Source: a virus. From it: a stretch of DNA of 28,358 bases. The number at the start of each line of letters is the position of its first letter. Position 1 is the first letter of the stretch. This document shows positions 5,454-27,404 of the stretch, piece by piece. A program made the translations under genes and the position numbers. A model generated the notes under the pieces. The model saw only the letters and a program-made list of their open reading frames with translations. It was not told the DNA's origin and did no database searches. The stretch lies in the IMG/VR virus record IMGVR_UViG_3300020471_002216, positions 1 to 28,358 of that record; one strand, given 5' to 3'.

Positions 5454-5454
5454 T

Positions 5455-10553: not shown

Positions 10554-10561
10554 TGATTAGA

Positions 10562-10571
10562 TATTTATACT
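10562..10571 (-). promoter_or_regulatory. TATAAATA box before rfbB
   Basis: The minus strand reads AGTATAAATA, starting 18 nt before the rfbB ATG. TATAAATA is the T4-type late promoter -10 sequence, and AGTRTAA also fits the element before the portal and PhoH genes. It sits in an 87-nt gap (10554-10640) that otherwise shows nothing recognisable. Confidence 0.4.
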
Positions 10572-10640
10572 ATTTTTTTGAAATCGTTGCAATGCTTTAA
10601 TTATTTTATTGTGATGTTGGCATTTTTATTTACAGTTTTT

Positions 10641-11670: not shown

Positions 11671-12281
11671 TAAAAATCGTATTTAAATAATTCTAAATCT
11701 TTTTTATAAAAATTTTCTATAATTTTTTTAGTATCATCATTATATTCTTGAGTATAATCATGATTCTTTTTAACAGTTTCTCGTGCTTTACCTATTTTTT
11801 TAAACTCTTCGAAGTCTAAACCTAAATGATCGTATACTTGTTTTAGTTCAGTATTTAATTGCTCGAATTTTACAACTTTATTTATAGCAATTTTATCATT
11901 TATACATATAAATTCATTTTGATTTACGAAATGAACATCTTTAGACCATTTCGAATCTACAAAAGTTTTACAAAAATTTTCAAAAGATTGCCCTTCAGGA
12001 ATTGAGATTGGGTGATTTAATCTGGATAAATTTCTATTCTGACTAAAATCTCTATACCCCGACAAAAATCTATCAAAAGGATTCCTTACCACAGCAAATG
12101 AAAAATAATCTTCTAAATTTTTTTTATCTTTTAATGATGATAATTTTAAATGGTGAAGATCAGGTAATGGATCATTTCTGTCAGAAACAGCGAAAATGTT
12201 TTTAAAGGAAAGGTGAATAGAAGTCCCAGCAGTTTTGGGTACGTGCATAAATATAAATTTTTTTTCTTCGCAAATGAACAT
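11670..12281 (-). CDS. Sulfotransferase family protein, second copy
   Basis: A 203-aa PAPS-dependent sulfotransferase, 40 aa shorter than and divergent from the one at 4716-5453. The 5'-phosphosulfate loop is HVPKTAGTS (residues 13-21). The 3'-phosphate site is VVRNPFDRFLSGYRDF (R66, S74). Its site inside the sugar cluster, one base after the WavE-like gene stop, points to a glycan acceptor. No membrane anchor is seen. Confidence 0.87.
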   Translation of the reverse strand: MFICEEKKFIFMHVPKTAGTSIHLSFKNIFAVSDRNDPLPDLHHLKLSSLKDKKNLEDYFSFAVVRNPFDRFLSGYRDFSQNRNLSRLNHPISIPEGQSFENFCKTFVDSKWSKDVHFVNQNEFICINDKIAINKVVKFEQLNTELKQVYDHLGLDFEEFKKIGKARETVKKNHDYTQEYNDDTKKIIENFYKKDLELFKYDF

Positions 12282-12282
12282 T

Positions 12283-13059
12283 TTAAAGTACTTCTCTAAA
12301 ATTATTGCGATAGACTATCTTTTTATGAGCCCATTTACATATATAATTTTTCATTTTATTTATATCAACTTTTAACACTTTAGTTTCAAATATTATTTTA
12401 TTATCATAAGATATAAGTAGATTTTTATTTAAGTCAGCAAAATAACAAGGGTAACGAGGAACGTTTTCGTAAATTAGTCTATCTTCAAGAAAATATAAAA
12501 TGGCCTTACATAAAATAGTTTCGGCACAATGTTCAAATTGTACAAAATCGGGCTGTAATTTTCTTTTCCCGTCATACATATCTAATAAAAATTTATATGC
12601 CTGAATAAGAACTGAAGTTTTTGCTACGAAAATATGATCTCCCATATGATGAGTAAATTCGCCCCACGGTTTGTAAAATATATTCCCGCATACTAATTTA
12701 TTATCATCACGTAAAAATTCAGAAATTAATGGTTGTAAATTTTCATAACCCTCGTCAGACCTAACTTTAATTGTATATTTAGTCTTTACCTTCTTTAATC
12801 CTTGATAAGTGGTATATAATGCATAATAAAAAGTACTATCTTTTAAAACACCCTGTGTAGATTCTAAATCAGGTAGTGGAGATTTTATTATTAAAGTATC
12901 TTTATCATTTTCTATTTTCTCTGTAGAGTCGCCGTCGTAACAACTAACCACTACTGCATTTCGCATGATTCCAATTTTTTTATAAAATTTTATATAATCA
13001 CGACAATCACTATCAGCCTTTTGAGGCCCTTGAATCAGCACAGAAAAATCCGAATTCAT
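12283..13059 (-). CDS. WavE-like glycosyltransferase
   Basis: A 258-aa protein with the features of the WavE lipopolysaccharide-synthesis family: the N-terminal strand SVLIQGPQ, a middle block with the acidic motif YTIKVRSDEGYENL (the family's RSDE, a putative nucleotide-sugar/metal site), and FTHHMGDHIFVAK. WavE participates in outer-core LPS assembly in Vibrio; its exact reaction is not well defined. It starts 1 nt after the upstream stop of the nucleotidyltransferase/isomerase fusion. Confidence 0.7.
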   Translation of the reverse strand: MNSDFSVLIQGPQKADSDCRDYIKFYKKIGIMRNAVVVSCYDGDSTEKIENDKDTLIIKSPLPDLESTQGVLKDSTFYYALYTTYQGLKKVKTKYTIKVRSDEGYENLQPLISEFLRDDNKLVCGNIFYKPWGEFTHHMGDHIFVAKTSVLIQAYKFLLDMYDGKRKLQPDFVQFEHCAETILCKAILYFLEDRLIYENVPRYPCYFADLNKNLLISYDNKIIFETKVLKVDINKMKNYICKWAHKKIVYRNNFREVL

Positions 13060-13060
13060 T

Positions 13061-14215
13061 TTATTTAAAAGATGAGGACACCCTTGTCATATGTCTCCCC
13101 CCATCAAAAGAAGACTCTTTCAATTTTTTTATGATATGTTTTAAAGAATTTAAATCAGTATATTTTTGGGGTATACTAAAGAAGTTGGCGCAGTTATGCC
13201 TTCTTGCCATTTCCGCTGTGTATTCATCGGTTACCAAGGCAGCCCTAACATTTTCTTGTTTGTTGGCTAAAATATTTACACCTTGACCTGTTCTGCAAAA
13301 ACCCAAAACAAAATCACAAATTTTAGAATTTAAAGAGTCAACGCTTTGAAGGACGTAAGGATTATAGTCTGCATCTTTTTCTAAAAAAGTTCCAAAATCA
13401 ATATATTTGATTCCCATTTCATTTAAGATTAATTTCGCCTCTTCTTTGCGCTCATATCCCGAGTGATCTGAGCAAAGGCCCACTGGTTTTTCTCCAAATT
13501 CAAAAGCTACTTTTTCTACGAAAAATTCTAGCTCTTCAGGAGTGCCTAATACGTGCATCTTTTTAACTTTTTCTATACCCACTTTTAGGCCATCTCTAAT
13601 TAAAAGATTATACATTGGGCAGATATAAAACTCATCTTTAGTTCTAATATTCTTATTTACAAGCTCTTCTGCATAATCAACAAACATTTTGCCCGTTTTA
13701 TAATAATAAACACCAACTGCCGCGTCCGAACTTATAACTTGCTTCTCTGCGGTTTTGGTAGCGTAACCATTTTTGTCTAAAGCCACATAACTATGTGCAG
13801 GGCTATTCGCTTTAAAAGTTAAAATTAAACCATCTAATTCTTCACTAATATTGTCTGGATTAAAAGGGTCTTGAAAATAAACGTCGGGTGTATAAATAAT
13901 TAAAGGTAAATCATTATTGATATACTCTTTGGCTAATAAGCAGGTAGATACAGAGCCATCCGTGTCGTGATCTATGACTACTATATTAACATCTTTACCA
14001 AACTTTTTCTTTAATATTTCATCGATAGAAAAATTATTGATATGTTCTAATCTAACTGCAAAAGTAATATTACACTGAGAAGTGTTAAAAGATTCCATCG
14101 CCCAATCTATTACCTGTTTTGTTTTTGCCATGATAAGTGGCTTGGGCATTTTGTAACCACCATCTAAAAAACGTTGAGCTTTTCCAGCTATGGGCAATAA
14201 TAAGTTATATTTCAT
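13061..14215 (-). CDS. Sugar nucleotidyltransferase fused to RpiB/LacAB-type sugar-phosphate isomerase
   Basis: A 384-aa two-domain protein. Residues 1-235 form a nucleotidyltransferase (LLLPIAGKAQRFLDGGYKMP with the signature loop, KPLI, and a Mg-binding aspartate in LIIYTPDVYF). Residues 243-384 form a ribose-5-phosphate isomerase B/LacAB domain: GLCSDHSGYE (D250, H251), GFCRTGQGVNILANK with the catalytic-type C307, and ARRHNCAN (H340). The isomerase would interconvert keto- and aldo-sugar phosphates; the transferase would activate a sugar-1-phosphate with an NTP. The gene is linked by ATGA to a PfkB kinase and lies next to a KdsC-like phosphatase. I know no standard bacterial gene with this fusion; the sugar is unknown. 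Confidence 0.82.
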   Translation of the reverse strand: MKYNLLLPIAGKAQRFLDGGYKMPKPLIMAKTKQVIDWAMESFNTSQCNITFAVRLEHINNFSIDEILKKKFGKDVNIVVIDHDTDGSVSTCLLAKEYINNDLPLIIYTPDVYFQDPFNPDNISEELDGLILTFKANSPAHSYVALDKNGYATKTAEKQVISSDAAVGVYYYKTGKMFVDYAEELVNKNIRTKDEFYICPMYNLLIRDGLKVGIEKVKKMHVLGTPEELEFFVEKVAFEFGEKPVGLCSDHSGYERKEEAKLILNEMGIKYIDFGTFLEKDADYNPYVLQSVDSLNSKICDFVLGFCRTGQGVNILANKQENVRAALVTDEYTAEMARRHNCANFFSIPQKYTDLNSLKHIIKKLKESSFDGGRHMTRVSSSFK

Positions 14216-14904
14216 TTTTTAATTAAATAATTAGAAACCTCATTTGATGTTTCTAAAGTTGCCTTTTCTAAGGAATAATTATACATTTTTTTTAAAAAAA
14301 AGCTAGCGAAAATATCTCCCGCGCCGTTTACATTTAAATTTTTTATAGGAGATGTATGCCCTTCAAAAACAATTTTTCTATTAATTATAACTTCGCATCC
14401 ATTTTCATCATGAAATACTATCGGAGTTTTTACTTTTATATTTTTATATAATTTTTTTCTTTCTCTAGAGTCAAAAATAATTTTAGCTTTACGCATATAT
14501 TTTTCGTAAGCTTTTCTGTTGGTTTCAGTGCAAAAATCTAAACTAACATTTATTTTTTGAAAATCTATTGCATTTATATTTTCAATATCATCTATGTAAG
14601 CAATATGTAGCCAATCTATATTATCATAATTTATTGAGACATTTTTAAATTTTTTTTTACCGTAAGTCAGAGAAGTTCTTGAAGATTTATTTAATTCACT
14701 CAATATTATTGCTCTTTTACTACCGCAAAAATAATTATGATACTTTACGCTTTCTAAAGGATTTTTAGATATATTAGAGATTCCACCTATTGAATCGCAT
14801 TGTTGTAATACGAAATTAGTTGTGCCTAAATTTAATTCGTCCACCTCATAAATAGAATCGAAATATTTTAAACCAAATAATCCTAAGTTAAAATTTTTCT
14901 TCAT
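14212..14904 (-). CDS. PfkB/ribokinase-family sugar kinase
   Basis: A 230-aa kinase, shorter than the usual 300 or so. The PfkB C-terminal signature is clear: NVNGAGDIFASFF, with the catalytic base D197 and anion hole GAG (194-196). The N-terminal substrate region is reduced, lacking the usual glycine-rich GG motif and most of the beta-lid. It phosphorylates a sugar or sugar phosphate using ATP. It lies between the KdsC-like phosphatase (17-nt overlap) and the nucleotidyltransferase/isomerase fusion (4-nt overlap), implying one pathway, possibly making a sugar-1-phosphate or bisphosphate. Confidence 0.78.
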   Translation of the reverse strand: MKKNFNLGLFGLKYFDSIYEVDELNLGTTNFVLQQCDSIGGISNISKNPLESVKYHNYFCGSKRAIILSELNKSSRTSLTYGKKKFKNVSINYDNIDWLHIAYIDDIENINAIDFQKINVSLDFCTETNRKAYEKYMRKAKIIFDSRERKKLYKNIKVKTPIVFHDENGCEVIINRKIVFEGHTSPIKNLNVNGAGDIFASFFLKKMYNYSLEKATLETSNEVSNYLIKK

Positions 14905-15415
14905 TATCTAAAGATTGGAATTTTGTTAGATTATCTTTATGAGGGATTAAACCGCTATCATGCAACTTGTAAAAAAGTTCCATAATTACATTTTTGCCGC
15001 CGTTAGAATTTAAACATATAATGTCGCCATCAGTATCTTTTAATTCTCTACATGCGTCAGCGGGACAATAAGAATAACCCACTGATTTTAATAAGTCTAA
15101 GTCAAATAGATCATCTCCAATGGCAACCATTTCATCCGTAGTGCAATCATATGTCTTTGAAAAATCTTTTAAAAAATCTATTTTATTTTTACCTCTCGAA
15201 TAATAAAAATCTATATTCCTATTTTTAGCTACAGCTTCGTTTACATTATTATCGCCAGACAAAAAGCAAACTTTTACCCCTCTAGATACTAACCTTTTGA
15301 TAGCTGTAAAGTCTTTGTCACAAAAAGTCTTGTAAATCCCGTTGCCAGAATTATCGTAATATTTAGAACCGTCAGTTAAAACGCCGTCTACATCTAATAT
15401 AACTAATTTTATCAA
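14888..15415 (-). CDS. KdsC-like HAD phosphatase
   Basis: A 175-aa class C0 HAD hydrolase like KDO-8-phosphate phosphatase. Motif I is ILDVDGVLTDGS (nucleophile D8, acid D10), motif II CFLSGDNN, the motif III lysine lies in RGKNKIDFL, and motif IV is VAIGDDLFDLDLL. The family removes phosphate from sugar phosphates; here the likely substrate is an intermediate of the adjacent kinase, isomerase and nucleotidyltransferase. No KDO synthase or CMP-KDO synthetase is in the window, so a KDO role is not supported. Confidence 0.87.
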   Translation of the reverse strand: MIKLVILDVDGVLTDGSKYYDNSGNGIYKTFCDKDFTAIKRLVSRGVKVCFLSGDNNVNEAVAKNRNIDFYYSRGKNKIDFLKDFSKTYDCTTDEMVAIGDDLFDLDLLKSVGYSYCPADACRELKDTDGDIICLNSNGGKNVIMELFYKLHDSGLIPHKDNLTKFQSLDNEEKF

Positions 15416-15416
15416 A

Positions 15417-16145
15417 TTAAAATTCTCCCCTTATACTTTTATCCACAGAATAAGTTTCATGTAATTCAGTCAACTCTTTACTATATTCTGAATAATTCCA
15501 TTTACCTTTAACAATAGCAGTGGCAACATAAGGATAAACTGAAGAGTCCCAATGACCCAAGCCCCTTTTGGGTTCATTATTATAATAATATAAATTTTTA
15601 TGTCCCATAATTCTTGATAAAATATGAGCCTTGGGTTCAAATTCATGAACTTTATTTATATTGCAATTTTCGTAAAGTTTCAATAATGATTTTAATTTTA
15701 CCAAACAGGGCTGTACTGAAAAATAAGAATCACCGTTTTTAGGTAAATGATATAAACATTTTTCTCCTTTGTATTTTTTTTCTGAGAAATTTAAGTTACC
15801 GCCTTTTATAAGCTTAATGTAATCAATAGAGTCTTCTTTCATTAAGTTAATTTTAGAAGAGATAAAATTTAAATCAGGCTCTGCATACAAAGGCATATCT
15901 TCATGATGAAAAATTGCATATTCTTCTTTTATATTTTTTAAACACGAGGCAACTCTTTTATTATAACTCAAAGAATCTTCGTATTGTATAAGTTGCCAAT
16001 TTTCTGGAATACAATCACTTTTTTCATTAGAGAAAACATAACGTGAGATATTATTAGGAAAATATTTATCGACTTGTCCGAAGAACATTGGCCACACATC
16101 GCTATAACTGATGTGCGAATACATAATGATGCCATAGTTGTTCAC
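15417..16145 (-). CDS. Glycosyltransferase-like protein, unknown
   Basis: A 242-aa soluble protein with an alternating start (YGIIMYSHISYSDVWPMFF), a strand ending in acidic residues (YAIFHHEDMPLYAEP, resembling the metal-binding acidic motif of GT-A enzymes) and a later SYFSVQPCLVKL segment. These features resemble phage and polysaccharide-cluster transferases, but no family is named with confidence. It overlaps the upstream 276-aa gene by ATGA, and the KdsC-like gene follows it 1 nt after its stop. Confidence 0.6.
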   Translation of the reverse strand: MNNYGIIMYSHISYSDVWPMFFGQVDKYFPNNISRYVFSNEKSDCIPENWQLIQYEDSLSYNKRVASCLKNIKEEYAIFHHEDMPLYAEPDLNFISSKINLMKEDSIDYIKLIKGGNLNFSEKKYKGEKCLYHLPKNGDSYFSVQPCLVKLKSLLKLYENCNINKVHEFEPKAHILSRIMGHKNLYYYNNEPKRGLGHWDSSVYPYVATAIVKGKWNYSEYSKELTELHETYSVDKSIRGEF

Positions 16146-16972
16146 AAATCTTTGGTTATATCTACGAGTGTTAAAGGGATTTTATGGATGTGAAAATGCC
16201 ATTTATAAAGTTTGTGATTGTCTATGCATAAGTGTCGAGGCCATTTCAATAAATTTTTACTTTGATTATTTTTTTCTTTTAGCATTTCATTACTGAATTC
16301 TTCTTCAGCATTACTCTCTACCCAACCATTTAAGCAGGAATTTACATAATCACTATTTTTTTGATAATAGTCAAACATAAAATCATATAAGTTTCCAACG
16401 ATTGTCATGTTACAACTATTAGAATAAAACCAATGATCAGGTATACCATGATTAAATTGATCCCAAAATGCACAATGTAAATTGTTCATGTCCGAATCTA
16501 ATAGTAAATTAAAGTTGGTTGCATAATATTTTTGAGGACAATGTTTGCCACGGGTTCCTAAATCAAACCTAGCTAGTATGGTGCAATCATATTGAAAATC
16601 GTTTTCAGTTTCAAAATTATTTTTAATATCTATGACTTTTTTTCTAGAATATAAAAAGCTTAAAGTTCTCGATATTACGTTATTTTTTAAATCTCCAAGT
16701 GAATTTCTATTTATCCCTTCATCAAACCACTCTTGATTTTTGCATATTTCTTGTCTTGAAAAATCTATTTGTTCTTCAAAGATTTTATCCTTTGTTAAGC
16801 TACCATAAAGATTATTATACTCTTGTATATTTTTTGTGTCCCAGCTATGAGTAAAAATATCTACTTGGTTATTAAGTAATATTTTTTTATTAATATACTC
16901 AAATGCGTGATGGAAAGCTGATAGTCCACCAGAGTTTTCCATATACCCGTGTAGACACAAGGCTATTTTCAT
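16142..16972 (-). CDS. Putative glycosyltransferase (HSWD-type), unknown acceptor
   Basis: A 276-aa protein. The opening MKIALCLHGYMENSGGLSAF, the VDIFTHSWDT segment and the acidic YDCTILARFDLG (D-x-D-like after a hydrophobic strand) match a pattern I recognise from uncharacterised glycosyltransferase-like proteins of phages and giant viruses. A later SDMNNLHCAFWDQFNHGIPD region is probably the acceptor loop. No membrane segment. It overlaps both neighbours by 4 nt. Confidence 0.62.
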   Translation of the reverse strand: MKIALCLHGYMENSGGLSAFHHAFEYINKKILLNNQVDIFTHSWDTKNIQEYNNLYGSLTKDKIFEEQIDFSRQEICKNQEWFDEGINRNSLGDLKNNVISRTLSFLYSRKKVIDIKNNFETENDFQYDCTILARFDLGTRGKHCPQKYYATNFNLLLDSDMNNLHCAFWDQFNHGIPDHWFYSNSCNMTIVGNLYDFMFDYYQKNSDYVNSCLNGWVESNAEEEFSNEMLKEKNNQSKNLLKWPRHLCIDNHKLYKWHFHIHKIPLTLVDITKDL

Positions 16973-17568
16973 TTGTTGAAAATTGTAAATTCGGTTAGGT
17001 CTCTGTAGTCTGGTTCTTCTACTTGATCCTCTGCATGTTTAGGGTATACCCCAAGTAGCATCATTCCTCTAGCTGCCCATTCTGGGGTAATATATGAATT
17101 ATAGCCCATGAACTCAGGGTCATCTTCATAATAAGAAGTTTTTTCGTGTCTACCAGACCATCTAAGTTTTTTTAAGGCTTCGTAAGCTTCAGTGCTATCA
17201 GTTAAAACCATACCACCTTTACCAATCTTTAAAGGTTTTTTAATACCAAAAGATAAGCACATTAAAGTATCTTTTATGTACATACCAGAAGTTAATCTTT
17301 TAGCTGCATCATAAATAGGGTAAGGTTTAAGTTGGTAAATACCTTTCCATTTTGTATCTTCAAAAACAAGTTTACCCCCCGACTGCTTTATGGATTGAGG
17401 TACTGATATATATGTTCTTTTAGGTATTGTTACTTCATCCACTTTAAGGTAGTCACAACACATTCTTATTGCGTTAGTGCAGTTATCACAAGAAACTGCG
17501 TATTTAGCTCCCGTATATTCAGCCATGTTCTCTTCGAACATTTCTACTACTTTTTGAGGATTATTCAT
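16969..17568 (-). CDS. Compact DegT/DnrJ/EryC1/StrS-type sugar aminotransferase
   Basis: A PLP-dependent sugar aminotransferase of only 199 aa, where the family is usually 370-400. It keeps the N-terminal large-domain signatures: FEENMAEYTGAKYAVS, YDAAKRL with the PLP-nitrogen Asp (D87), and CLSFGIKKPLKIGKGGM with the Schiff-base lysine, probably K111. It ends soon after the GYNSYITPEWAA segment and lacks the C-terminal domain. The frame is open and tightly coupled to its neighbours, so this looks like a stable short form, not a decaying gene. Together with rfbB it could make a 4-amino-4,6-dideoxy sugar, acylated by the adjacent GNAT enzyme. Confidence 0.75.
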   Translation of the reverse strand: MNNPQKVVEMFEENMAEYTGAKYAVSCDNCTNAIRMCCDYLKVDEVTIPKRTYISVPQSIKQSGGKLVFEDTKWKGIYQLKPYPIYDAAKRLTSGMYIKDTLMCLSFGIKKPLKIGKGGMVLTDSTEAYEALKKLRWSGRHEKTSYYEDDPEFMGYNSYITPEWAARGMMLLGVYPKHAEDQVEEPDYRDLTEFTIFNK

Positions 17569-17959
17569 TTTCTAAAATAACACATTCAAACTTTTTCTTC
17601 CAACCTAAAGACAAGAAAGTATTTATGCTGGCCTCATTACCCTTTTTAGCTTGAGCCCTCATTTTAGTTTCTGGAAAAAAATCTATTAAACATTTTAACA
17701 TTTTTTTTGCTACTCCTTTTTTTCTATGTTCTGGGGAAACAGCTAATCTGACATCACCTCTTACATGTCCAATAAATCCGATTCTTTCTCCGCTTTCGCC
17801 AAAAGCTATTAAATGATTTTCCCCATGTTTGCTCATAAATAATTCATGCTCTTTAGTGGTAATCTCTTCATTAGAAAAGAAACCGTCTGAACATTGATTT
17901 CTTAACAATCTTATAAAATCCCAATCTTTATTTTCAGATTTTTTTATTACTAATTCCAT
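17561..17959 (-). CDS. GNAT-family N-acetyltransferase
   Basis: I prefer ATG 17959 (132 aa, starting MELVIKK), which overlaps the previous stop by 10 nt; the longer frame to 17995 would overlap by 46 nt. The GNAT core is clear: DVRLAVSPEHRKKGVAKKML holds the acetyl-CoA pyrophosphate loop (motif A R/Q-x-x-G-x-A), followed by MRAQAKKGNEASINTFLSLG, the typical motif B. It transfers an acetyl group from acetyl-CoA to an amine, here plausibly the amino-sugar made by the adjacent aminotransferase. Confidence 0.83.
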   Translation of the reverse strand: MELVIKKSENKDWDFIRLLRNQCSDGFFSNEEITTKEHELFMSKHGENHLIAFGESGERIGFIGHVRGDVRLAVSPEHRKKGVAKKMLKCLIDFFPETKMRAQAKKGNEASINTFLSLGWKKKFECVILENE

Positions 17960-18750
17960 ATATCCACTTCGTTCGATAGAGTTCGGTGATTCCAATACAT
18001 ATTTAAGTATCCTCTATAGTAACAGCCCTTGAGATTCAAGTGGTAACCTAATGATGAACCAATGTCTATGTATTGATTATTATCATAATTTTTAAATAAT
18101 TCATATATCATATAATTACTTAACGTAGCGGCAGCAAACAAGAATACATGATCTTTAATATTATTTTCTTCTACCCAATTCTTAGCTTCTTCTACTAGAC
18201 CATAATTGTTTACCATGCAATTAGTGCCACATTTAAAATCTTTTACTACCTCAAATGGCAGATTAGTAAAGTCTGCATTCTCATTACAGATCATCACTAT
18301 TTTTTTATTAGAAAATTCTGGCAAGATTTCCGTCACAAATCTATGATAATTTGCATTTATCATTAAATTAGAAAAGGACAAGTGGTCATCGTCGCCTTCT
18401 CCATATAGCTCGGTACAAAATTTCCAAGACACATCGCCATAAGATGCGTTTTGTGCAGGTATGCCTTTAAAATAATTTTCTTTTCTGAACTTAAAAGCTT
18501 CTACTAATTTTTGATGAAAAAAGGTATGCTTCTCTGGATAAAACTCTTTTTGTTCTTCTGGTAAATATTGACCATTAAACCTTGTATCGTCTCCATGCAA
18601 ATCACCTTGTATAAAGTAGCTGTCAGCTAAAACCACTACATTATTTTGTAAGACTGTTACTTCGCCATCTGAAAATCGAGAAAAAGCAAAAGGAGTCTTA
18701 TTGACTATTAAATCTTTTATTTTATCAAATTCTTTTGTAAAGTCTTTCAT
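17950..18750 (-). CDS. GT-D-type glycosyltransferase (DUF1792-like)
   Basis: The start is placed at ATG 18750 (266 aa), giving an ATGA overlap with the SDR stop; the longer frame begins at 18771. The FAFSRFSDGEVTVL motif near the N-terminus and the late DIGSSLGYHLNL segment match the GT-D fold family (DUF1792), where a D-x-E pair after the first strands serves the nucleotide-sugar site. These enzymes add hexoses in streptococcal glycoprotein and polysaccharide assembly. A KIVMICNENAD strand and a VFLFAAATLSNYM strand fit a Rossmann core. Confidence 0.68.
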   Translation of the reverse strand: MKDFTKEFDKIKDLIVNKTPFAFSRFSDGEVTVLQNNVVVLADSYFIQGDLHGDDTRFNGQYLPEEQKEFYPEKHTFFHQKLVEAFKFRKENYFKGIPAQNASYGDVSWKFCTELYGEGDDDHLSFSNLMINANYHRFVTEILPEFSNKKIVMICNENADFTNLPFEVVKDFKCGTNCMVNNYGLVEEAKNWVEENNIKDHVFLFAAATLSNYMIYELFKNYDNNQYIDIGSSLGYHLNLKGCYYRGYLNMYWNHRTLSNEVDIWN

Positions 18751-19796
18751 GAGTAGTTTTTCTGTGCCCAAGAATAAATTCTGGATAGCGACTCTTCTAA
18801 ATCTATATCCAAACTGTAGTCTAATTCATTTTTAATTTTATCGACTGAAGGACACCTTCTTTTTGGTTCATGTTTATAAACAATGGGTCTTTCTACTAAT
18901 TCTACTATATCTTTTTTGCCACATACTTTTTCAACAAGTTTAGCCAATTCTATCATTGAAATTTCGTTTTCTGGATTACCAATGTGGTAAAGAATATCTT
19001 TTCCTTTCGTTAAAACCTTTATGCAGCCCGCCATAAAATCCCCGTACCAACAGAATGTCCTTGTCTGAGTACCAGGAGCATAAACATTAATTTTTTCCTC
19101 TCTAATGCATTTAGACATGAAGTTTGGTATTACTCTTTTGTCGTGCTGTCTAAAATAACCTACTACATTAAATGGCCTTACTATTTTGCAATCTAAATTA
19201 AATTGATCCCTAAAAACATAAGATAAAGTTTCTATGTACATTTTAGTTACATCGTAACACGATCTTTTATCTAGGGTCTTAACTGATGGCGTGTAGGACT
19301 CATCCGTAGGTATAAACTCCGCAGGAGGAGTACCCAATACCTCAGAAGAAGAGAAATTTAGGATTCTAGAATTATGCTGTAAAGCTAGCTCTAATAAATT
19401 TTTAGTTCCCACAGTGGAGACCTCCATAGTCTCAATCGGAAACCTTTCATAAAAATAAGGACTTGCACATCCACTACAATTAATTATGAAATCAATTTTT
19501 TCTTTATGAAGTTTTAAACTTAAATCTGTAATTAAGTCATGATCAATATTAATTAAGTTTTGATCTTCAAGATGTTTGTCGTTTTGTCTTCCTAAATAAT
19601 TGTCTACAGAGATAATTTTACATGGATAAGAGAATTTTTCTCCATTGAGGTACAAAAAGTATTTAACAAATAAAGAGCCTAAAAATCCAGCGCCTCCGCA
19701 GACAAGCACAGTTTTACCCTCAAAGTCATAACAGTTATATTCTGTTTTTTTGTAAACTTCTTCGAAATCTCTTATAAAGTTTTTTTCTAATTGCAT
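18747..19796 (-). CDS. NAD-dependent sugar epimerase/decarboxylase (UXS-like extended SDR)
   Basis: A 349-aa extended SDR with NAD site VCGGAGFLGS (residues 32-41) and the catalytic Tyr-x3-Lys in RSCYDVTKMYIETL. Several segments parallel UDP-glucuronate decarboxylase: RSCYD before the catalytic pair, a VRPFNVVGYF strand, RTFCWYGDFMAG and HEPKRRCPSVDKI. UXS makes UDP-xylose from UDP-glucuronate; another epimerase or dehydratase of a nucleotide sugar is possible. It overlaps the preceding glycosyltransferase by 10 nt and the following one by 4 nt. Confidence 0.83.
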   Translation of the reverse strand: MQLEKNFIRDFEEVYKKTEYNCYDFEGKTVLVCGGAGFLGSLFVKYFLYLNGEKFSYPCKIISVDNYLGRQNDKHLEDQNLINIDHDLITDLSLKLHKEKIDFIINCSGCASPYFYERFPIETMEVSTVGTKNLLELALQHNSRILNFSSSEVLGTPPAEFIPTDESYTPSVKTLDKRSCYDVTKMYIETLSYVFRDQFNLDCKIVRPFNVVGYFRQHDKRVIPNFMSKCIREEKINVYAPGTQTRTFCWYGDFMAGCIKVLTKGKDILYHIGNPENEISMIELAKLVEKVCGKKDIVELVERPIVYKHEPKRRCPSVDKIKNELDYSLDIDLEESLSRIYSWAQKNYS

Positions 19797-20722
19797 TTTA
19801 TATATTCTTTGAAATCATTTTTATCATCATAAAACCAAGTGCTAGCTTCGGCAAGGTCTCTTTCAATATCTAGCTTTAAATTTTCCCACCGTGGGCCCTT
19901 GGGGTCAGTCACTACCATATCCGAGGGAATAGTTGATAAAGACCTAAGTTTATCACCATCTTTAATTAATTCCCTCCATTGTTCCACTCTTTCTTCTAAA
20001 GTGCCTTGTGGTGGATTTCCTTTACAAAACACGCCTGAAAGACCTACGTGCATAGACCTACATTGATCTGGCTTTAAAGCGAATAAATTATTATCAAGCA
20101 TCATCCTTTCAAGCGAACCGTCGTGATGAGTATGCTCGTGAGGAGCTATTCTCAAATTATTAAATCTAATCATATTAAACTTTATAGGATCAGAGAAAAA
20201 TAATTCATTTTCAAGATAAGGACTAATATAGTTGTCTATAGCTTTTACTGAAATGCAAGATGGAGAGGTTAGTTGATAATCTCCAATTAATATATCTCCA
20301 CGACCATTCATTTCGGCCTCGGCTCTTCTTTTGTGAGCTATGGCAAATATCCTATCATATTTAGATAAATACTCTTCATAACACACTCTATTAAATCTTA
20401 AATAATCTTCAGTGGGAATCATGTCCTCTTCGCCCACTATTACGAACTCGTCTGCTTCAGCCGCAGACATAGGATATAAACTTAAAATATTGTGGAATCC
20501 CGTGATTGGACAATCAATCTTCTGCTTAACGTAAAGCTTGGTATCTACGTTTGGATTTCTTTTTTTAAAGTCTTCGATTACTTTATTTTCTTCGGGGTCA
20601 TAGCCTTCTTCAGTGTGAAATCTTAATTTATAGTTTTCAAGCTCTCCAGACTTCTCTAGCTGTTCTAAATATAGAAATAGCAAGTCAGGCTTGTTATAAA
20701 TTGTTATTGCTATAACATTCAT
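19787..20722 (-). CDS. GT-A-fold glycosyltransferase
   Basis: A 311-aa protein starting with a GT-A strand (MNVIAITIYNKPDLLFLYLEQL), followed by ADEFVIVGEEDMIPTEDYL, in which the E-E-D triplet occupies the place of the metal-binding D-x-D. RFNNLRIAPHEHTHHDG may supply the late histidine ligand. The pattern is GT13/GT2-like, but the family is not certain. No membrane segment. Its start overlaps the last base of the UDP-GlcNAc 2-epimerase stop, and the UXS-like SDR follows with a 10-nt overlap. Confidence 0.7.
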   Translation of the reverse strand: MNVIAITIYNKPDLLFLYLEQLEKSGELENYKLRFHTEEGYDPEENKVIEDFKKRNPNVDTKLYVKQKIDCPITGFHNILSLYPMSAAEADEFVIVGEEDMIPTEDYLRFNRVCYEEYLSKYDRIFAIAHKRRAEAEMNGRGDILIGDYQLTSPSCISVKAIDNYISPYLENELFFSDPIKFNMIRFNNLRIAPHEHTHHDGSLERMMLDNNLFALKPDQCRSMHVGLSGVFCKGNPPQGTLEERVEQWRELIKDGDKLRSLSTIPSDMVVTDPKGPRWENLKLDIERDLAEASTWFYDDKNDFKEYIKCN

Positions 20723-21717
20723 TAATTAAAAAACTTGAGACTTTTTACAACCCCTTCAGAGGCTTTACCATCCCCATAAGGACATTTAGCATTCACTTGG
20801 TAATCATAAACTAAATCATTAAATATTTTATTTAGATCGGAAGGGCTTGGGCACATGAAACTATGAACACCTATACTCTCTTTCCTTTCCGTAGTCTTTC
20901 TGCATACTATTACTTTTTTGTTTAGAAAGGAAGCTTCTTCTTGAATTCCTCCGCTATCACTAATTATAAGTTTACAATTAGCTATTTCTTTGATCATTTG
21001 ATCATACGAAAGAGGTTCAAGTATTTGAACGTTTTTTAAAAAAATTCTACATTCTTGGACTCTTGGGTTTGGGTGTAAGGGTATTTTAAATCGTAGATTT
21101 CTGTGCTGTTCTGCGAGTTTTGATATCTCTTGAAACCATTCTGGTAAACTATCATGATTTTCTCTTCTGTGCATTGTCACTAAAACAGTTTCGCCGTAAT
21201 AAGAGTTTACGTTGAGTAAATTATCTAGAACAGTGTTTCCAACTGTAGTGATTGACCCGCTTACTTTCTCTTCTTTTAGACCTGTAGAATTTGCTGAAGT
21301 TGGGCAAAGGTTTACGGAGGCTATTCTAGATATCATTTGTCTGTAAGCTTCCTCTGGGAAAGGATTATCTAAATCGTAAGAACGAAGCCCCGCTTCTAGA
21401 TGAATCACTTTTACCTTTCTATTGTAAGCCGCTAAAGCCACCGCATAAGCTGACGCCGTATCACCCTGAACTAAAACGTAGTCAAAATCTTCCCATTCTA
21501 CATCACTAACAAGAATATTAGCTATTACTTCATTTAATCTATTATGATTACCTTCAGGAATACTAATCTCATAATCAAATTTATTTTGTTGTATTAAGTC
21601 AACATGCTGACCAGTAAATAAAGTATTATAAATTATTCCAGATTTTTCAAAAGCATTGAATAATGGCTTTATTTTTATCCATTCAGGTCTAGTGCCAAAT
21701 GCAATTAGAATTTTCAT
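20722..21717 (-). CDS. wecB: UDP-N-acetylglucosamine 2-epimerase (non-hydrolysing)
   Basis: Interconverts UDP-GlcNAc and UDP-ManNAc. Family signatures include FGTRPEWIKIKPL (residues 8-20), VQGDTAS (D86), HLEAGLRS (E108, R112), FPEEAYRQMIS, VTMHRRENH with the catalytic-region histidine, HPNP, and SDSGGIQEEAS for UDP binding. At 331 aa it is about 45 residues shorter than E. coli WecB, mostly at the ends and loops. No UDP-ManNAc dehydrogenase is seen in the window, so the product may go directly to a glycosyltransferase or to a pathway encoded elsewhere. Confidence 0.92.
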   Translation of the reverse strand: MKILIAFGTRPEWIKIKPLFNAFEKSGIIYNTLFTGQHVDLIQQNKFDYEISIPEGNHNRLNEVIANILVSDVEWEDFDYVLVQGDTASAYAVALAAYNRKVKVIHLEAGLRSYDLDNPFPEEAYRQMISRIASVNLCPTSANSTGLKEEKVSGSITTVGNTVLDNLLNVNSYYGETVLVTMHRRENHDSLPEWFQEISKLAEQHRNLRFKIPLHPNPRVQECRIFLKNVQILEPLSYDQMIKEIANCKLIISDSGGIQEEASFLNKKVIVCRKTTERKESIGVHSFMCPSPSDLNKIFNDLVYDYQVNAKCPYGDGKASEGVVKSLKFFN

Positions 21718-22448
21718 TAAATATTTATTAATTTAAAACCCTTGCTCACGATGTCTTTTAAAGCTTGCCCAAAGTGAGTGCCGTGATAGTTAACTGAGAT
21801 CGCGTGTTTATCTACTCCAAATTTATAAGCAAATTCTGGATTTGATCCCCACATTTCTAAGTCGTCTTGCGGATGAGGGGGAACGTAAGTAGCAAGCCCT
21901 AAATGCTTTTGTATGGCGTATGAAAAATACATATCTTCGCCGCACACCTTACTTTGTGGTTGGGGAGCTTCAGACCAAAAGGCTCCAAGCCATTCTCTTT
22001 TAAAAAACCAACTGTGACCAACTATGTCAACTTGTTCAGTCTTTTCATTTGGTTTGGCCCAACCATGTTGAGTATAGCTTTGATAGTCTAAATCGTTGAA
22101 TATAACGCCGTTTGTGCCGAGTAGGCCATTATACTCCTCAATCGTATTTAAACAGCTCTCAAGCCATTTTGAACCTGGTATGGTATCATCATCAAACACG
22201 CATACATATTCTGTTTCGGCATTTAGTGCATAAGCGAATCTAGCCCAAACCCCAAAATTCTGATTGTTCATGCTAACTATACAGCTTTTCAATAAATCAT
22301 AATCAAAAGGACATTCATTCGTAGCGCCATTTTGCCAAAACATAACGCTCGCAGGAGTTACAGTTTGCCTTTTGATAGATTCTATTTGAGCCTTTAACGC
22401 ATGGGGTCTTCTAAATCCATTTAATATAACGGTAACATTTTTACTCAT
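21717..22448 (-). CDS. GT2-like glycosyltransferase
   Basis: A 243-aa GT-A enzyme. The N-terminal TVILNGFRRPHALKAQIESI and IKRQTVTPASVMFWQNG are typical GT2 strands, and VCVFDDDTIPGSKWLESCL carries the metal-binding acidic motif (DDD). A late GEDMYFSYAIQKHLG segment resembles the family's E-D acceptor helix. It starts inside the end of the preceding epimerase/reductase gene (8-nt overlap) and is soluble. Donor and acceptor are unknown. Confidence 0.83.
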   Translation of the reverse strand: MSKNVTVILNGFRRPHALKAQIESIKRQTVTPASVMFWQNGATNECPFDYDLLKSCIVSMNNQNFGVWARFAYALNAETEYVCVFDDDTIPGSKWLESCLNTIEEYNGLLGTNGVIFNDLDYQSYTQHGWAKPNEKTEQVDIVGHSWFFKREWLGAFWSEAPQPQSKVCGEDMYFSYAIQKHLGLATYVPPHPQDDLEMWGSNPEFAYKFGVDKHAISVNYHGTHFGQALKDIVSKGFKLINI

Positions 22449-23310
22449 TTTTCCAGTTTTTCAAACAGTCTTCAACTGCTTCAATGCTAGCCTTGACTTT
22501 GAAGCCTGAATTTATTAATTTTGAATTATCCAAAACACAATTTGATCGTGGAGCTTTTACATCAATATTTTTATAAAATTCTTTTTCAGTTAAAATATCA
22601 TAAGAATCAATAAGTTTGTATTCCTTTAATAACTCAGCAACTTGCTCGGTATTAACTGGATCAGTGTTTACGATATTATATATACCATAATCACATTTTT
22701 CTTTTGCTAAATGGATACAGGCTTGGACAAATTCTTTTCTATGACTAATAGAATTAACAGCGCCTAATAATTTTTCATAATTTTGTAATTTACTTAAGTA
22801 ATTACGAGGACTATCAATATTATCGAAAGGTATCCTTAATCTTGCTATATAAGACTTTTCCCATGTAGATTCGATAATTGATTCAGCTATTGTTTTCGTG
22901 TTACTATAAAAGCTGCCTGTTATTTCAGAAAGAGCATGAAAGTTAGGCTCATCCTCTTCAGTGAAGCCCGCTCCATTATTATCACCAGTATAAATACACC
23001 CAGAAGAAATATGTAATAGAGTAGCGTTTGTTATCGAGCAAGCGGTGGCAACAGTCTTGGCTAATTCGACGTTGCCTTTATAACATTCGTCTTTATTATC
23101 TTCGCAAGCGTCTACATTGGGTTTGCCTGTATAACCTGCACAATTAATCAATACAGATATACCATTATTATCAATAAGCTCTGCTAAATCTTTTAAAGAA
23201 TAATAATTATCTTTTTTTCTACTAAATTCTCTAAATGATACGTTTTGATCAATAAGCTCTTGAACAAAGGCTTGGCCTATATAACCTGATGCTCCTAATA
23301 TTCCAATCAT
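22441..23310 (-). CDS. Bifunctional dTDP/UDP-4-keto-6-deoxyglucose 3,5-epimerase/4-reductase-like (RmlD-type SDR)
   Basis: A 289-aa SDR with cofactor site LGASGYIGQ (residues 5-13) and catalytic Y135-x3-K139 in SFYSNTK. The stretches CAGYTGKPNVDACED, SSGCIYTGD, FTEEDEPNF and PFDNIDSPRNYLSKLQNYEK closely resemble the plant NRS/ER enzyme and its giant-virus relatives, which both epimerise and reduce the 4-keto sugar to L-rhamnose. With rfbA and rfbB this would complete dTDP-L-rhamnose without a separate rmlC, which is not seen here. A monofunctional RmlD is the alternative. The ATG overlaps the stop of the TnpB-like/Cas12 gene (ATGA). Confidence 0.82.
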   Translation of the reverse strand: MIGILGASGYIGQAFVQELIDQNVSFREFSRKKDNYYSLKDLAELIDNNGISVLINCAGYTGKPNVDACEDNKDECYKGNVELAKTVATACSITNATLLHISSGCIYTGDNNGAGFTEEDEPNFHALSEITGSFYSNTKTIAESIIESTWEKSYIARLRIPFDNIDSPRNYLSKLQNYEKLLGAVNSISHRKEFVQACIHLAKEKCDYGIYNIVNTDPVNTEQVAELLKEYKLIDSYDILTEKEFYKNIDVKAPRSNCVLDNSKLINSGFKVKASIEAVEDCLKNWKNE

Positions 23311-24809
23311 TTAACTTTTGTTTTTTTTCTTTTGGGTTTAGGATTGACTATTCTTACTCCCTCTTGGGCTAAAGTTTTGCAAGCATTAACATCTCGATGA
23401 AGCTGCGCGTCACAGCCGCCGCATTTAAACTTTTTGGTTGATATTGCTAGATTCTCATTCTTATGACCACAAACGTGGCAAATCTGAGTAGAAGCAAAAT
23501 ATTTATCTACCTGAGTAAATACCTTGCCTCTTCTATGAGATTTATATTTAATTTTATCTTTGAGAGCTCCCAATGAAGCGTCTAAGGTAGCACGATTCTG
23601 TAGTCTTTTTAATCCTTGGCCATTTTTAGCATATGAGCCGTTTTCATTTTTTATGGCTTGTTTTTTAGCTGACATTTGTTTTATGTCAAGAGACTCCATT
23701 ACTACGTGAGAAATATTATCATCATTTGTAATTTGATGAGATATTTGATGTTGAAAGTTATCTCTAAGATTAGTAAGTTTTTCGTGAAGCTTATCGCACT
23801 TGTTTTTTGCTTTAAGCCAGTTTTTACCTCCGCATGTTTTTCGACTCATATTTCTGTCTAAGCGCTGTTTCTTGCGAAATATTGTTTTTAAAAATCTAGG
23901 ATTATCAATAATTTCACCTTTATCATCAGATTTTCCTGTTGCCTTAGTAAGATAATTATCTCCTACCCCCAAGTCAATACCTAAAGTTTTATTAAGGGTT
24001 ACTTTTTTTGGAGGCTCGGGAAAAGCCACGCTTTGCCTAAAGTTTATGGTGATAAAGTATTTGCCTGTTTTGGTGCGTTCGACGGTTGCGGTTTTTACTT
24101 CGCCGTCTATTATTCTGTGGGCTCTGAATTTTTGAGGAGCTTTCTTTAGTAGGGGAAATGTAACGGCGTTATTTTCAAAATCAACTTTAACACTGTCAAA
24201 AGTACAAGACTGTTTTGTCCATCTACCTTTAAATGAGGGTTTGCCCGTGTCACTTTGGCGTTTATCGAAAAACGCTTTCCATGCATCATCTAAATTTAAA
24301 GCTGTGTGGTAATATGGCTCACCCGAACATTCTTTAAGCCAAGGATACTCTTCTCTTAAAAATTTTATTTGTCTTTTAGCATTAACAATAGCTATCATTT
24401 TATTGGCTTGCTTGGGAACAGCTTCAACCATTTTTTTAGTTTTTTCGTCTTTGACCTTTTTAAGAAGACACCTTTCGGTTTCCAACTCATTGATTTCAGG
24501 ACGTATTGTTTTTAAGATTTCTACTCCTTTATCATAGGGTAAAATTAATTCATCACGTAAACGTTTAAATTCAGAGGCATAAAATTTTTGTTGCTCTTCT
24601 GTGTCTCTGGGCAAAGAGCTTAAATAATCAATGTTTTGCTCTTTAGAATATTTGGAGACGGCTTCATAATAATCATTTTGAAAAGCTAAAAGCCAATTAT
24701 AAATAAAGCGAGTATTACCAAAGCATTGATTTAAATATTTTTTACCTTTTTTATTGGGACGAAGGCGATATTTTACAGGAAGAGTCTCTTCTTTGATTTT
24801 AGTTTTCAT
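23307..24809 (-). CDS. TnpB-like compact Cas12 (type V) RNA-guided nuclease candidate
   Basis: A 500-aa RuvC nuclease. The N-terminus is OrfB_IS605 helix-turn-helix-like (KYRLRPNKKGKKYLNQCFGN, then TRFIYNWLLAF). It carries RuvC-I LGIDLGVGDN (D279), RuvC-II HVVMESLDIKQMS (E372), a zinc ribbon C444/C447 and C463/C466, and RuvC-III LHRDVNACK (D473), so the catalytic triad is intact. ISDra2 TnpB is 408 aa with D191, E278 and D361, so most of the extra length lies before RuvC-I, roughly residues 55-145, as expected for a Cas12-like recognition lobe. The tail is strongly basic. It lies 239 bp from a 22-spacer CRISPR array, and its stop overlaps the next ATG, leaving no room for a TnpB omega-RNA. 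No TnpA or IS ends are seen. Subtype is uncertain (V-U/V-F-like). Confidence 0.85.
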   Translation of the reverse strand: MKTKIKEETLPVKYRLRPNKKGKKYLNQCFGNTRFIYNWLLAFQNDYYEAVSKYSKEQNIDYLSSLPRDTEEQQKFYASEFKRLRDELILPYDKGVEILKTIRPEINELETERCLLKKVKDEKTKKMVEAVPKQANKMIAIVNAKRQIKFLREEYPWLKECSGEPYYHTALNLDDAWKAFFDKRQSDTGKPSFKGRWTKQSCTFDSVKVDFENNAVTFPLLKKAPQKFRAHRIIDGEVKTATVERTKTGKYFITINFRQSVAFPEPPKKVTLNKTLGIDLGVGDNYLTKATGKSDDKGEIIDNPRFLKTIFRKKQRLDRNMSRKTCGGKNWLKAKNKCDKLHEKLTNLRDNFQHQISHQITNDDNISHVVMESLDIKQMSAKKQAIKNENGSYAKNGQGLKRLQNRATLDASLGALKDKIKYKSHRRGKVFTQVDKYFASTQICHVCGHKNENLAISTKKFKCGGCDAQLHRDVNACKTLAQEGVRIVNPKPKRKKTKVK

Positions 24810-24821
24810 AATTACTTATTT
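24792..24821 (+). promoter_or_regulatory. Weak candidate plus-strand promoter for the intergenic RNA
   Basis: TTGATT at 24793-24798, then 17 nt, then TTATTT at 24816-24821 (or TATTTT with 18 nt), would start a plus-strand transcript near 24828-24831, right before the GAGAGGGGG hairpin. It overlaps the first codons of the nuclease gene. AT-richness makes chance matches easy. Confidence 0.2.
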
Positions 24822-24830
24822 TTTAAATTT

Positions 24831-25028
24831 GAGAGGGGGAAGGTTTTACCCTCCCCCCTTGCTCTAGGACTTTTCTACTCTGCCTCGAATCAACTTTTGA
24901 GGGTTGATTGTTATGAGCCATATCTAGTAGACATAACTTTCTGTCCAACCGACAGTAGAGTGAACTTTCGTTCGACTAAAAATGATGATAGATAATTTTT
25001 GCTTTGGAGTAAAGAGGTTTTTTTATTT
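24831..25028 (+). ncRNA. Candidate tracrRNA/scaffold RNA of the Cas12 locus (five consecutive hairpins)
   Basis: The 239-bp gap 24810-25048 has no ORF but holds five hairpins in series: H1 24835-24857 (GGGGGA/TCCCCC-type stem, loop TTTTA), H2 24888-24909 (AATCAAC/GTTGATT), H3 24910-24937 (GTTATG/CATAAC, wide loop), H4 24941-24955 (CTGTC/GACAG) and H5 24959-24977 (GAAC/GTTC extended by AGT/ACT around one bulge). Segment 24895-24906 (TTTTGAGGGTTG), which includes the whole H2 loop, can form 12 continuous pairs (three G-U) with repeat positions 7-18 (CAGTCCTCGAAA). A second short match is AGGACT at 24866-24871. A T-rich run at 25018-25031, after a weak CTTT/AAAG stem, could end the transcript. 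The plus strand is favoured because the G-U pairs would be A-C mismatches on the other strand. Ends are approximate. Confidence 0.5.
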
Positions 25029-25048
25029 TTTACTGAAGCAATGTAGGA

Positions 25049-26525
25049 ATGTTGTAATCCTTGAAATATGTATTAGTGCGAAACTAAAACTCAATAAGGA
25101 ATACCATAATGTTGTGTTGTAGTCCTCGAAATATGTACCAGTGCGAAACATCGTTTCTTGGATAGGGGAATAAAGTACAGTGTTGCAGTCCTCTAAATCT
25201 TCACCAGTGCGAAACGTTGCATACCCAGCAACTTGGGCAGTTCTCGTGTTGCAGTCCTCTAAATCTTCACCAGTGCGAAACAGATAACCCTCCATCATGC
25301 CGTTCACGTAGTGTTGCAGTCCTCGAAATCTTCACCAGTGCGAAACAAAACATGTGAAAATGCAGGTGATCGCCATGTGTTGCAGTCCTCTAAATCTTCA
25401 CCAGTGCGAAACTTCTTTCGGTTATTATCCATTATCTCGAAGTGTTGCAGTCCTCGAAATCTTCACCAGTGCGAAACAATACTTTCCTATTCTCGGACAC
25501 CTTAAGTGTTGCAGTCCTCGAAATATGTACCAGTGCGAAACACGAACTAGTCGCAAAAGCTGACAAAGGTTTGTGTTGCAGTCCTCGAAATATGTACCAG
25601 TGCGAAACTGCCTACCTACAGAGCTAAGGATCTCAGGGTGTTGCAGTCCTCGAAATATGTACCAGTGCGAAACCCCCTTCCTTACTTATAAAGTTAGGAC
25701 AGTGTGTTGTAGCCCTCGAAATTAGTACCAGTGCGAAACCCATTAGTGCCATTCATGTACTCATGAGCGTGTTGCAGTCCTCTAAATATGTACCAGTGCG
25801 AAACATGGATCAGATGGAATTATTCTACGATCGTGTTGTAGTCCTCGAAATCTTCACCAGTGCGAAACCGTCGCTCGGGCTTCTTCAAATTCTTTGATGT
25901 GTTGCAGTCCTCGAAATTAGTACCAGTGCGAAACCCCGATTGGTTCCAGAAGGAACACGCCAGGTGTTGCAGTCCTCGAAATCTTCACCAGTGCGAAACT
26001 AATAGTAGCATGGTAGGTTGGGAAATAATGTGTTGCAGTCCTCTAAATCTTCACCAGTGCGAAACAATCCTTGCGATTACACAACCACAATAACAGTGTT
26101 GCAGTCCTCTAAATCTTCACCAGTGCGAAACCTCAAAGCCTCAGGAGCGTCAATTGTGAGCGTGTTGCAGTCCTCGAAATCTTCACCAGTGCGAAACACT
26201 AGATGGGTTATAAATACAGCTACCATGTGTTGCAGTCCTCTAAATATGTACCAGTGCGAAACCTAAAGGGTCGGCGTTGGCGGGTATATTAGGTGTTGCA
26301 GTCCTCGAAATATGTACCAGTGCGAAACACTGTATCGGTGCTTTTGTAGGAAGCATAACGTGTTGCAGTCCTCGAAATCTTCACCAGTGCGAAACAGACG
26401 GAGCCACCTATTTTAACAGAATTCGTGTTGTAGTCCTCGAAATCTTCACCAGTGCGAAACTGTGATCTACAAAATCAACAATCGCCCGCGTGTTGCAGTC
26501 CTCGAAATCTTCACCAGTGCGAAAC
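25049..26525 (+). CRISPR. CRISPR array: 23 repeats of 36 nt, 22 unique spacers of 28-31 nt
   Basis: Repeats start at 25049, 25114, 25180, 25246, 25311, 25377, 25442, 25506, 25573, 25638, 25704, 25769, 25833, 25899, 25964, 26030, 26096, 26162, 26227, 26293, 26360, 26425 and 26490. The plus-strand consensus begins GTGTTGCAGTCCTC and ends ACCAGTGCGAAAC; the middle is variable (see findings). Its ends can pair (TTGCA with TGCGA, plus GT/AC outside). The first repeat is the most degenerate (ATGTTGTAATCCTTG); the last is perfect. Spacers are all different and about 42% G+C by hand count, against about 30% around them. The plus strand is assigned because repeat-end pairing and the 5' GTTGCAG and 3' GAAAC ends suit it, but the degenerate repeat at the low end is usually leader-distal, so orientation is open. 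Only 24 bp separate the array from the rfbA stop. Confidence 0.96.
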
Positions 26526-26549
26526 AGGACTTCTGTAAAATGTCAATGA

Positions 26550-27404
26550 TCACGAAAGCCTTTCAAGATACTTTTTGTATTCTACATCAGGCATTTTCGA
26601 TATAAGTGTTTGTAAATCTTTTTTGGAAAGAAGTCCAGCTTTATATGCAGCTTCTTCGGGGCATCCTATTTTAATTCCCTGACGTTGTTCTATCACCCTA
26701 ACATACTCTCCTGCTTCATTCATACTGTGACACGTTCCAGCGTCAAGCCATGCACATCCGCGATTGATTTTGTAAACTTTTAAATTCTCACCTCTTAGGT
26801 ACGTTTTTATCACATCAGTGATTTCTAGTTCTCCTCGCGCAGAGGGTTTTAAAGATGACGCAACTTTAACAACGGATTTATCAAATATATAAAGACCAGG
26901 AATGGCTAAATTCGTTTTTGGATTTTGTGGTTTTTCTTCGATTGAAATGGGCGCTCCACGTTTATTTAATTCTATAACGCCATATCTTTCGGGGTCATTT
27001 ACTTCATACGCGAATATTGTACCGCCTTGAATAAAATTCTTAAAAGCTCTCGCGAATACAGAACTTCCATAAAAGAGATTGTCACCCAGCAAAAGTGAAA
27101 TATTATCTTGACCAATGAAATCTCTTGCAATCGTAAAAGCTTGCGCTATACCTTTGGGTTGTGCCTGTTTCTTGTAAACTATTTTTGCTCCGAAACGAGA
27201 ACCGTTACCGAGTGTTTGTTTAAAAGCGGGTAAATGTTCGGGGCTAGAAATAATACAAATCTCATTAATACCATTCTCTAAAAAAGTAGATAAAGAATAA
27301 TATATTAATGGTTTGTCATAAATAGGGAGCAAACTCTTGGTTACGCCTAATGTCATAGGGTAAACTCTAGTTCCCTTACCTCCTGCTAATATTATTCCTT
27401 TCAT
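26550..27404 (-). CDS. rfbA: Glucose-1-phosphate thymidylyltransferase
   Basis: Makes dTDP-glucose from glucose-1-phosphate and dTTP, the first step of the dTDP-rhamnose route and the substrate of the rfbB enzyme here. Signatures: ILAGGKGTRVYPMTLGVTKS (residues 5-24), SLLPIYDKPLIYYSLS, LLLGDNLFYG with the metal-binding D108, EEKPQNPKT, and RGCAWLDAGTC. At 284 aa it is the normal length and looks intact. It starts 5 nt after the GT17-like gene stop. Downstream, 24 bp past its stop, begins the CRISPR array, so the sugar operon is interrupted by the CRISPR locus at this point. Confidence 0.95.
   Translation of the reverse strand: MKGIILAGGKGTRVYPMTLGVTKSLLPIYDKPLIYYSLSTFLENGINEICIISSPEHLPAFKQTLGNGSRFGAKIVYKKQAQPKGIAQAFTIARDFIGQDNISLLLGDNLFYGSSVFARAFKNFIQGGTIFAYEVNDPERYGVIELNKRGAPISIEEKPQNPKTNLAIPGLYIFDKSVVKVASSLKPSARGELEITDVIKTYLRGENLKVYKINRGCAWLDAGTCHSMNEAGEYVRVIEQRQGIKIGCPEEAAYKAGLLSKKDLQTLISKMPDVEYKKYLERLS

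Follow-up and report, generated by a model that had tools for sequence, protein, structure and literature searches.

Two phages carry, between homologues of rmlA and rmlD, a gene for a TnpB-like nuclease, a structured noncoding stretch and an array of clustered regularly interspaced short palindromic repeats (CRISPR), and the question is whether these parts form a working CRISPR-Cas (CRISPR-associated) system or are only neighbours. We address it in the IMG/VR virus record IMGVR_UViG_3300020471_002216, whose 28,358 nucleotides are referred to here as the window. Judging from sequence comparison, folding and structure modelling, we lean towards the view that the locus is a functional and self-contained module for CRISPR-Cas interference, a miniature type V-like system carried by the phage. 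The window is DNA of an uncultivated phage and also encodes a large terminase subunit, PhoH, a sigma-like factor and an ERCC4-type nuclease. Relatives of its terminase are encoded on at least 599 IMG/VR stretches, and among the annotated phages listed the terminase relatives are distant only, matching part of the protein at less than 28% identity. The original prediction, made from the letters of this DNA, described a TnpB-like type V effector, an RNA element and an array without adaptation genes in phage DNA, and this description was upheld.

The effector is a 500-aa RuvC nuclease with a zinc ribbon, and the coordinates (open reading frame, ORF, 23307-24809) and residues first given for it proved correct: D279, E372, D473 and the four zinc cysteines are intact and show no variation when the protein is aligned with TnpB and C2c8 proteins. 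Its strongest NCBIfam match was guided_TnpB (217.6 bits, cut-off 100); the transposon-specific IS200_TnpB cut-off was not reached, and V_cas_c2c8, the V-U2 model, scored 104.2 bits, below its cut-off of 350. With PADLOC, the best match was Cas12u4 (2.9e-52), followed by Cas12f (9.8e-49) and Cas12u2 (9.1e-45). An AlphaFold 2 (AF2) model built from a 45-sequence alignment (predicted local distance difference test, pLDDT, 79; predicted template modelling score, pTM, 0.70) was closest among solved folds to ISDra2 TnpB (Z 27.7), ahead of Cas12f (~19), LaTranC (17.7) and Cas12n (15.2); since this alignment consists mostly of TnpB, the model may have been drawn towards TnpB. Structure prediction from two sequences alone was unusable (pLDDT 33). 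Two insertions distinguish the protein. The N-terminal one adds ~85 residues relative to ordinary TnpB, with shorter insertions at the same place in C2c8 and in gp061 of the cyanophage vB_AphaS-CL131 (CL131). The other, of ~20 residues in the lid, has a full-length counterpart only in C2c8 and CL131 gp061 among ~60 relatives compared, Cas12n and the relative L142 having shorter ones. The C2c8 lid hallmark EDGxGYxQNG...GLNK has its counterpart here, NENGSYAKNG, at the same place, so that the lid feature of V-U2 is present.

The same module occupies the same site in a second phage (L001, also G001; IMG/VR 3300031972_002136), where it is likewise followed by rmlD, glycosyltransferase and wecB homologues; scans of IMG/VR with the single protein and with the two-sequence alignment found no further carrier. 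The two effectors are 89% identical, and because the ratio of non-synonymous to synonymous divergence (dN/dS) is 0.075 (dN 0.064, dS 0.85), the effector is under strong purifying selection. In a relative whose terminase is 80% identical (L011), rmlA and rmlD lie ~10 bases apart, which identifies an empty site. Two marks of a type V system in the broad sense are found together: a RuvC effector of TnpB/Cas12 fold with an intact D-E-D triad and zinc ribbon, and its linkage to an array in more than one genome.

The gap between array and effector had been described as hairpin-rich, and folding bears this out: the core of 24810-25048 folds at -52.2 kcal/mol (z = -4.1), and none of 200 shuffled sequences was as stable. 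Between the two phages, 230 of 242 columns of the noncoding stretch are identical (~95%), compared with ~49% of the synonymous sites in the neighbouring gene, so the RNA is under a constraint of its own; this contrast and the fold z argue most strongly for a working RNA. Rfam contained no match to it, and annotated phages no relative. When RNA and repeat are folded jointly, the 3' end of the RNA, AGTCCTAGAGC, pairs with AGGACT of the repeat, adjoining the GCAACAC handle and the guide. All six pairs are retained in all 43 repeats of both phages, where the changes A27G and C28T both give G-U pairs, and repeat positions 18-21, 24-26, 29, 31 and 33-35 are invariant. Pairing pattern and invariant positions fit a putative scaffold of trans-activating CRISPR RNA (tracrRNA) and CRISPR RNA (crRNA) that would use the 3' half of the repeat. 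The 5' edge of the structured RNA carries a promoter-like sequence, and the region contains no excess of such sequences over chance.

The array lies upstream of the effector and on its coding (minus) strand, an arrangement that the original prediction had not mentioned. It contains 23 repeats of 36 nt (consensus GTTTCGCACTGGTGAAGATTTCGAGGACTGCAACAC) and 22 spacers of 28–31 nt, all distinct. These counts agree with the 23 regular repeats and unique spacers first reported; the repeats, however, are not identical, and the last one (25049-25084) is degenerate. Across the 43 repeats of both arrays, the variation, likewise new here, falls mainly at positions 14-17, 22 and 30. Recurring repeat types (GAAG, ACAT, ACTA) are freely combined in 25049-26525 and in L001:77-1388, which is unusual for CRISPR arrays. 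A search of IMG/VR for the repeat pattern returned L001 only, and a pattern of the repeat was absent from 84,980 species genomes. The two phages have no spacer in common, and models of Cas1 and Cas2 found no match in either contig. Recombination is suggested rather than established, because adjacent repeat haplotypes cluster weakly (p 0.06) and positions 14-17 show no linkage with position 22 (p 0.41). One spacer is present twice in the L001 array (L001:954-982 and 1216-1244), and the Thermus phage Lalka8 also has a duplicated spacer.

As we picture the module, the array would be transcribed on the minus strand inside a phage operon and the intergenic stretch would give rise to a tracrRNA, whose 3' AGTCCT would pair with AGGACT of each repeat. 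Together, tracrRNA and crRNA may rebuild the scaffold that TnpB holds in a single omegaRNA, and the guided effector would then cut spacer-matching DNA beside a protospacer-adjacent motif (PAM), most likely that of a rival phage or plasmid in the same cell. Spacer renewal would likely come from arrays recombining with one another or from host adaptation proteins acting on them, not from a Cas1-Cas2 of the phage. Several points weigh against this picture. The energy of the repeat:RNA duplex over the whole stretch is no better than with shuffled repeats (72% were as good); a 6-nt anti-repeat match could, taken alone, be chance; both contigs are fragments, and adaptation genes could lie beyond their ends; and no spacer of either array had a convincing match in all the DNA searched, hence no PAM could be read.

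The first two of these points bear on the role of the RNA. The effector might use crRNA alone, in which case the conserved stretch would serve the effector mRNA as a 5' leader or a regulatory element and would not be a tracrRNA. V-U2 (C2c8) is tabulated as tracrRNA-independent (PMC11641405), a strong hairpin (24835-24858) stands directly before the effector start codon, and the anti-repeat pairing is not significant on energy alone. The constraint, however, covers a multi-stem structure of ~150 nt, beyond what a leader hairpin needs, the promoter-like site is placed at the 5' edge of this structure, and the 6-nt pairing is kept in 43 of 43 repeats; we regard a crRNA-only effector as unlikely.

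The missing targets bear on the role of the module as a whole. When the spacers of both arrays were compared with ~1.05 Mb of related phage loci against a shuffled control, near matches were not in excess, and sensitive blastn of the arrays against phages and plasmids reached an E of ~5–6 at best. Exact patterns of merged spacers, covering six spacers, had a single match in IMG/VR, which was L001's own spacer, and the array of the window had no convincing target in 44 whole virus records. One candidate was rejected: the 5' end of spacer 15 agrees with G043 at 20 of 21 nt, but there are 9 mismatches in 31, about what chance would give for the amount of DNA searched. That neither ~1 Mb of related phage DNA nor the annotated phages and plasmids contained a phage target would suit a role in regulating host genes or in counter-defence within the infected cell; for CL131, regulation has been proposed (PMC6293099). 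The RuvC site is nevertheless intact, which sets the protein apart from known silencing effectors (Cas12m, for example), and complete turnover of spacers between two phages suits shifting rivals better than fixed host genes. A regulatory or counter-defence role is, in our assessment, unlikely; by analogy, the module would probably serve against rival phages or plasmids.

Comparison with known systems shows which of these features are distinctive. TnpB is inferred to have become associated with CRISPR arrays on ~50 independent occasions (PMC12669027). Phages below 200 kb are said to carry CRISPR systems only rarely (PMC11656645); published phage-borne examples lacking adaptation genes include many V-U-like systems in landfill phages (PMC12607003). 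The original prediction compared the locus with CasPhi and Cas-lambda, which was too narrow, as two phage-borne systems are closer precedents. CL131 carries a V-U2 system without adaptation genes, consisting of the C2c8-like gp061 and a 10-spacer array (PMC6293099). Like the present locus it combines a TnpB-like effector, with a lid insertion and an N-terminal insertion, and an array; it differs in that the proteins are 30% identical over 328 aa, the repeat is different and nearly uniform, the array lies downstream of the gene and no tracrRNA was reported. The Thermus phages Lalka8, 27a and 27b, which have been isolated, carry TnpB-CRISPR loci without cas1/cas2 (PMC11437467), again with a TnpB-like gene beside an array, repeat variants and a duplicated spacer; their effector has 564 aa and no BLAST match to ours, their repeat is different, the array lies directly 3' of the gene, and a constrained RNA between array and gene was not described. 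Since phage TnpB-CRISPR loci without cas1/cas2 have been published, the kind of system is already known. What distinguishes this one is the order array-RNA-effector, the constrained upstream RNA, repeats that vary mainly at set positions, and a full exchange of spacers in the absence of adaptation genes. The effector precedes the array in the phage and plasmid precedents compared (CL131, Lalka and the Microcystis C2c8), whereas here the array comes first and the RNA separates the two, a layout unmatched among the examples compared.

Cas12n (type V-N, formerly V-U4/C2c9; RdCas12n 9j09) resembles the effector in being TnpB-like and of ~500 aa, in its longer lid and in the best PADLOC match, and is itself tracrRNA-dependent; its tracrRNA lies within the Cas12n mRNA (PMC11641405), whereas the conserved RNA that is the candidate counterpart here lies 5' of the effector start codon. 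Cas12f (V-F) enters the comparison by its fold match only, beside the PADLOC score given above. A further virus-borne TnpB-CRISPR locus on a different branch is possibly represented by L114 (IMG/VR 2928400839_000002), in which a TnpB-like ORF (3890-5185) is followed ~140 nt downstream by an array (5325-5683) with repeats of ~30 nt (GATAGACAATAACATAAGATGTATTTAAAT).

The IS200/IS605 element protein ISDra2 TnpB has the RuvC and zinc motifs of the effector and is closest to it in solved fold. This closeness and guided_TnpB as the strongest NCBIfam match could indicate an ordinary IS605/IS607 TnpB whose position next to a CRISPR array is accidental. In contrast to ISDra2 TnpB, the effector has two extra insertions and a linked array; linkage, order and intervening RNA are conserved in the two phages, and no Y1 transposase (TnpA) was found in either record. 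The effector stop codon overlaps the rmlD start codon (ATGA) in both phages, which leaves no room for a TnpB-type 3' omegaRNA, and the protein stays below the IS200_TnpB cut-off. A chance neighbour of this sort is very improbable, and the same absence of Y1, the same lack of 3' space and the second phage also speak against the outcome named beforehand as fatal to the original prediction, an IS605 TnpB whose mobile guide lies elsewhere. It is just as improbable that the array is a decoy or mini-array relying on host Cas proteins beside an incidental nuclease: arrays with which viruses borrow host Cas proteins are known (PMC6858448; PMC11656645), and the mini-arrays among them (PMC6858448) resemble this one in that a virus carries the guides, which are used between viruses there and would be here, but they have one or two spacers against 22 here, the repeat pattern was not found in the species genomes searched, and this phage brings its own effector, kept under strong purifying selection.

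In the tree of TnpB and Cas12 proteins, the two phage proteins form one long branch of uncertain placement. The effector stands outside the starred C2c8 clade and apart from Cas12n, the latter represented by a 254-aa fragment of 9j09, and has no supported position inside either; grouping with C2c8 and CL131 was not rejected (approximately unbiased test, p-AU 0.374), nor was grouping with Cas12n (p 0.457). Broader protein scans of IMG/VR added only relatives of at most 35% identity. The long branch and the unrejected groupings establish neither membership nor an independent origin, so the independent capture, or intermediate between TnpB and type V, first suggested for this protein goes further than the tree. 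We can only tentatively entertain a separate type V variant that arose by an independent capture of TnpB in a phage, in which the scaffold moved upstream as a tracrRNA and spacers turn over by recombination inside polymorphic repeats without Cas1-Cas2. As one more branch beside the ~50 inferred transitions from TnpB to Cas12 (PMC12669027), the locus refines that picture and does not overturn it. If functional, it would provide a compact RNA-guided nuclease of 500 aa for which a candidate guide RNA of ~120 nt, at 24861-24978, is defined, and a natural example of a virus maintaining a varied set of guides with no adaptation genes of its own. As the two phages have the same effector and RNA and no common spacer, array renewal is directly testable.

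Table 1. Features of the locus and its flanks; the order on the minus strand is rmlA, 24-nt leader, CRISPR array, noncoding stretch, effector gene, rmlD.
Feature	Position	Strand	Remarks
rmlA-like nucleotidyltransferase	26550..27404	-	upstream flank
Leader, 24 nt, from rmlA stop to first repeat	26526..26549	-	almost the same in L001
CRISPR array	25049..26525	-	23 repeats x 36 nt, 22 spacers
Noncoding stretch, array to effector; candidate tracrRNA	24810..25048	-	fold z -4.1; conservation in L001
Promoter-like TTTACT-17-TATCAT	24985..25013	-	5' edge of structured RNA; one base different in L001
Candidate anti-repeat AGTCCTAGAGC	24861..24871	-	predicted to pair with AGGACT, repeat positions 24-29
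Strong G+C hairpin GGGGGGAGGGTAAAACCTTCCCCC	24835..24858	-	after candidate anti-repeat; possible terminator or RNA stabiliser
Cas12/TnpB-like effector, 500 aa	23307..24809	-	motifs, family models, fold model, dN/dS
N-terminal (REC-side) insertion, ~aa 55-145	24375..24647	-	not in standard TnpB
RuvC residue D279	23973..23975	-	intact
RuvC residue E372	23694..23696	-	intact
Lid insertion, aa 380-402 (..KNENGSYAKNG..)	23604..23672	-	~60 proteins compared
Zinc cysteines C444/C447/C463/C466	23412..23480	-	intact
RuvC residue D473	23391..23393	-	intact
rmlD-like reductase	22441..23310	-	downstream flank; ATG overlaps effector stop codon (ATGA)

Beyond the module, positions 9612-22448 hold a long series of sugar-nucleotide, glycosyltransferase and sulfotransferase-like genes. 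The rmlD gene (22441-23310) shares only 71% identity with the L001 version, although the surrounding effector, glycosyltransferase and wecB genes are 89–93% identical, and the drop possibly marks a recombination boundary next to the module. Different inserts occupy the rmlA-rmlD junction in further relatives (L019:608-890; L021:404-1222, the latter with an ORF that by eye is methyltransferase-like), and given these varied inserts, genes may be exchanged at this junction.

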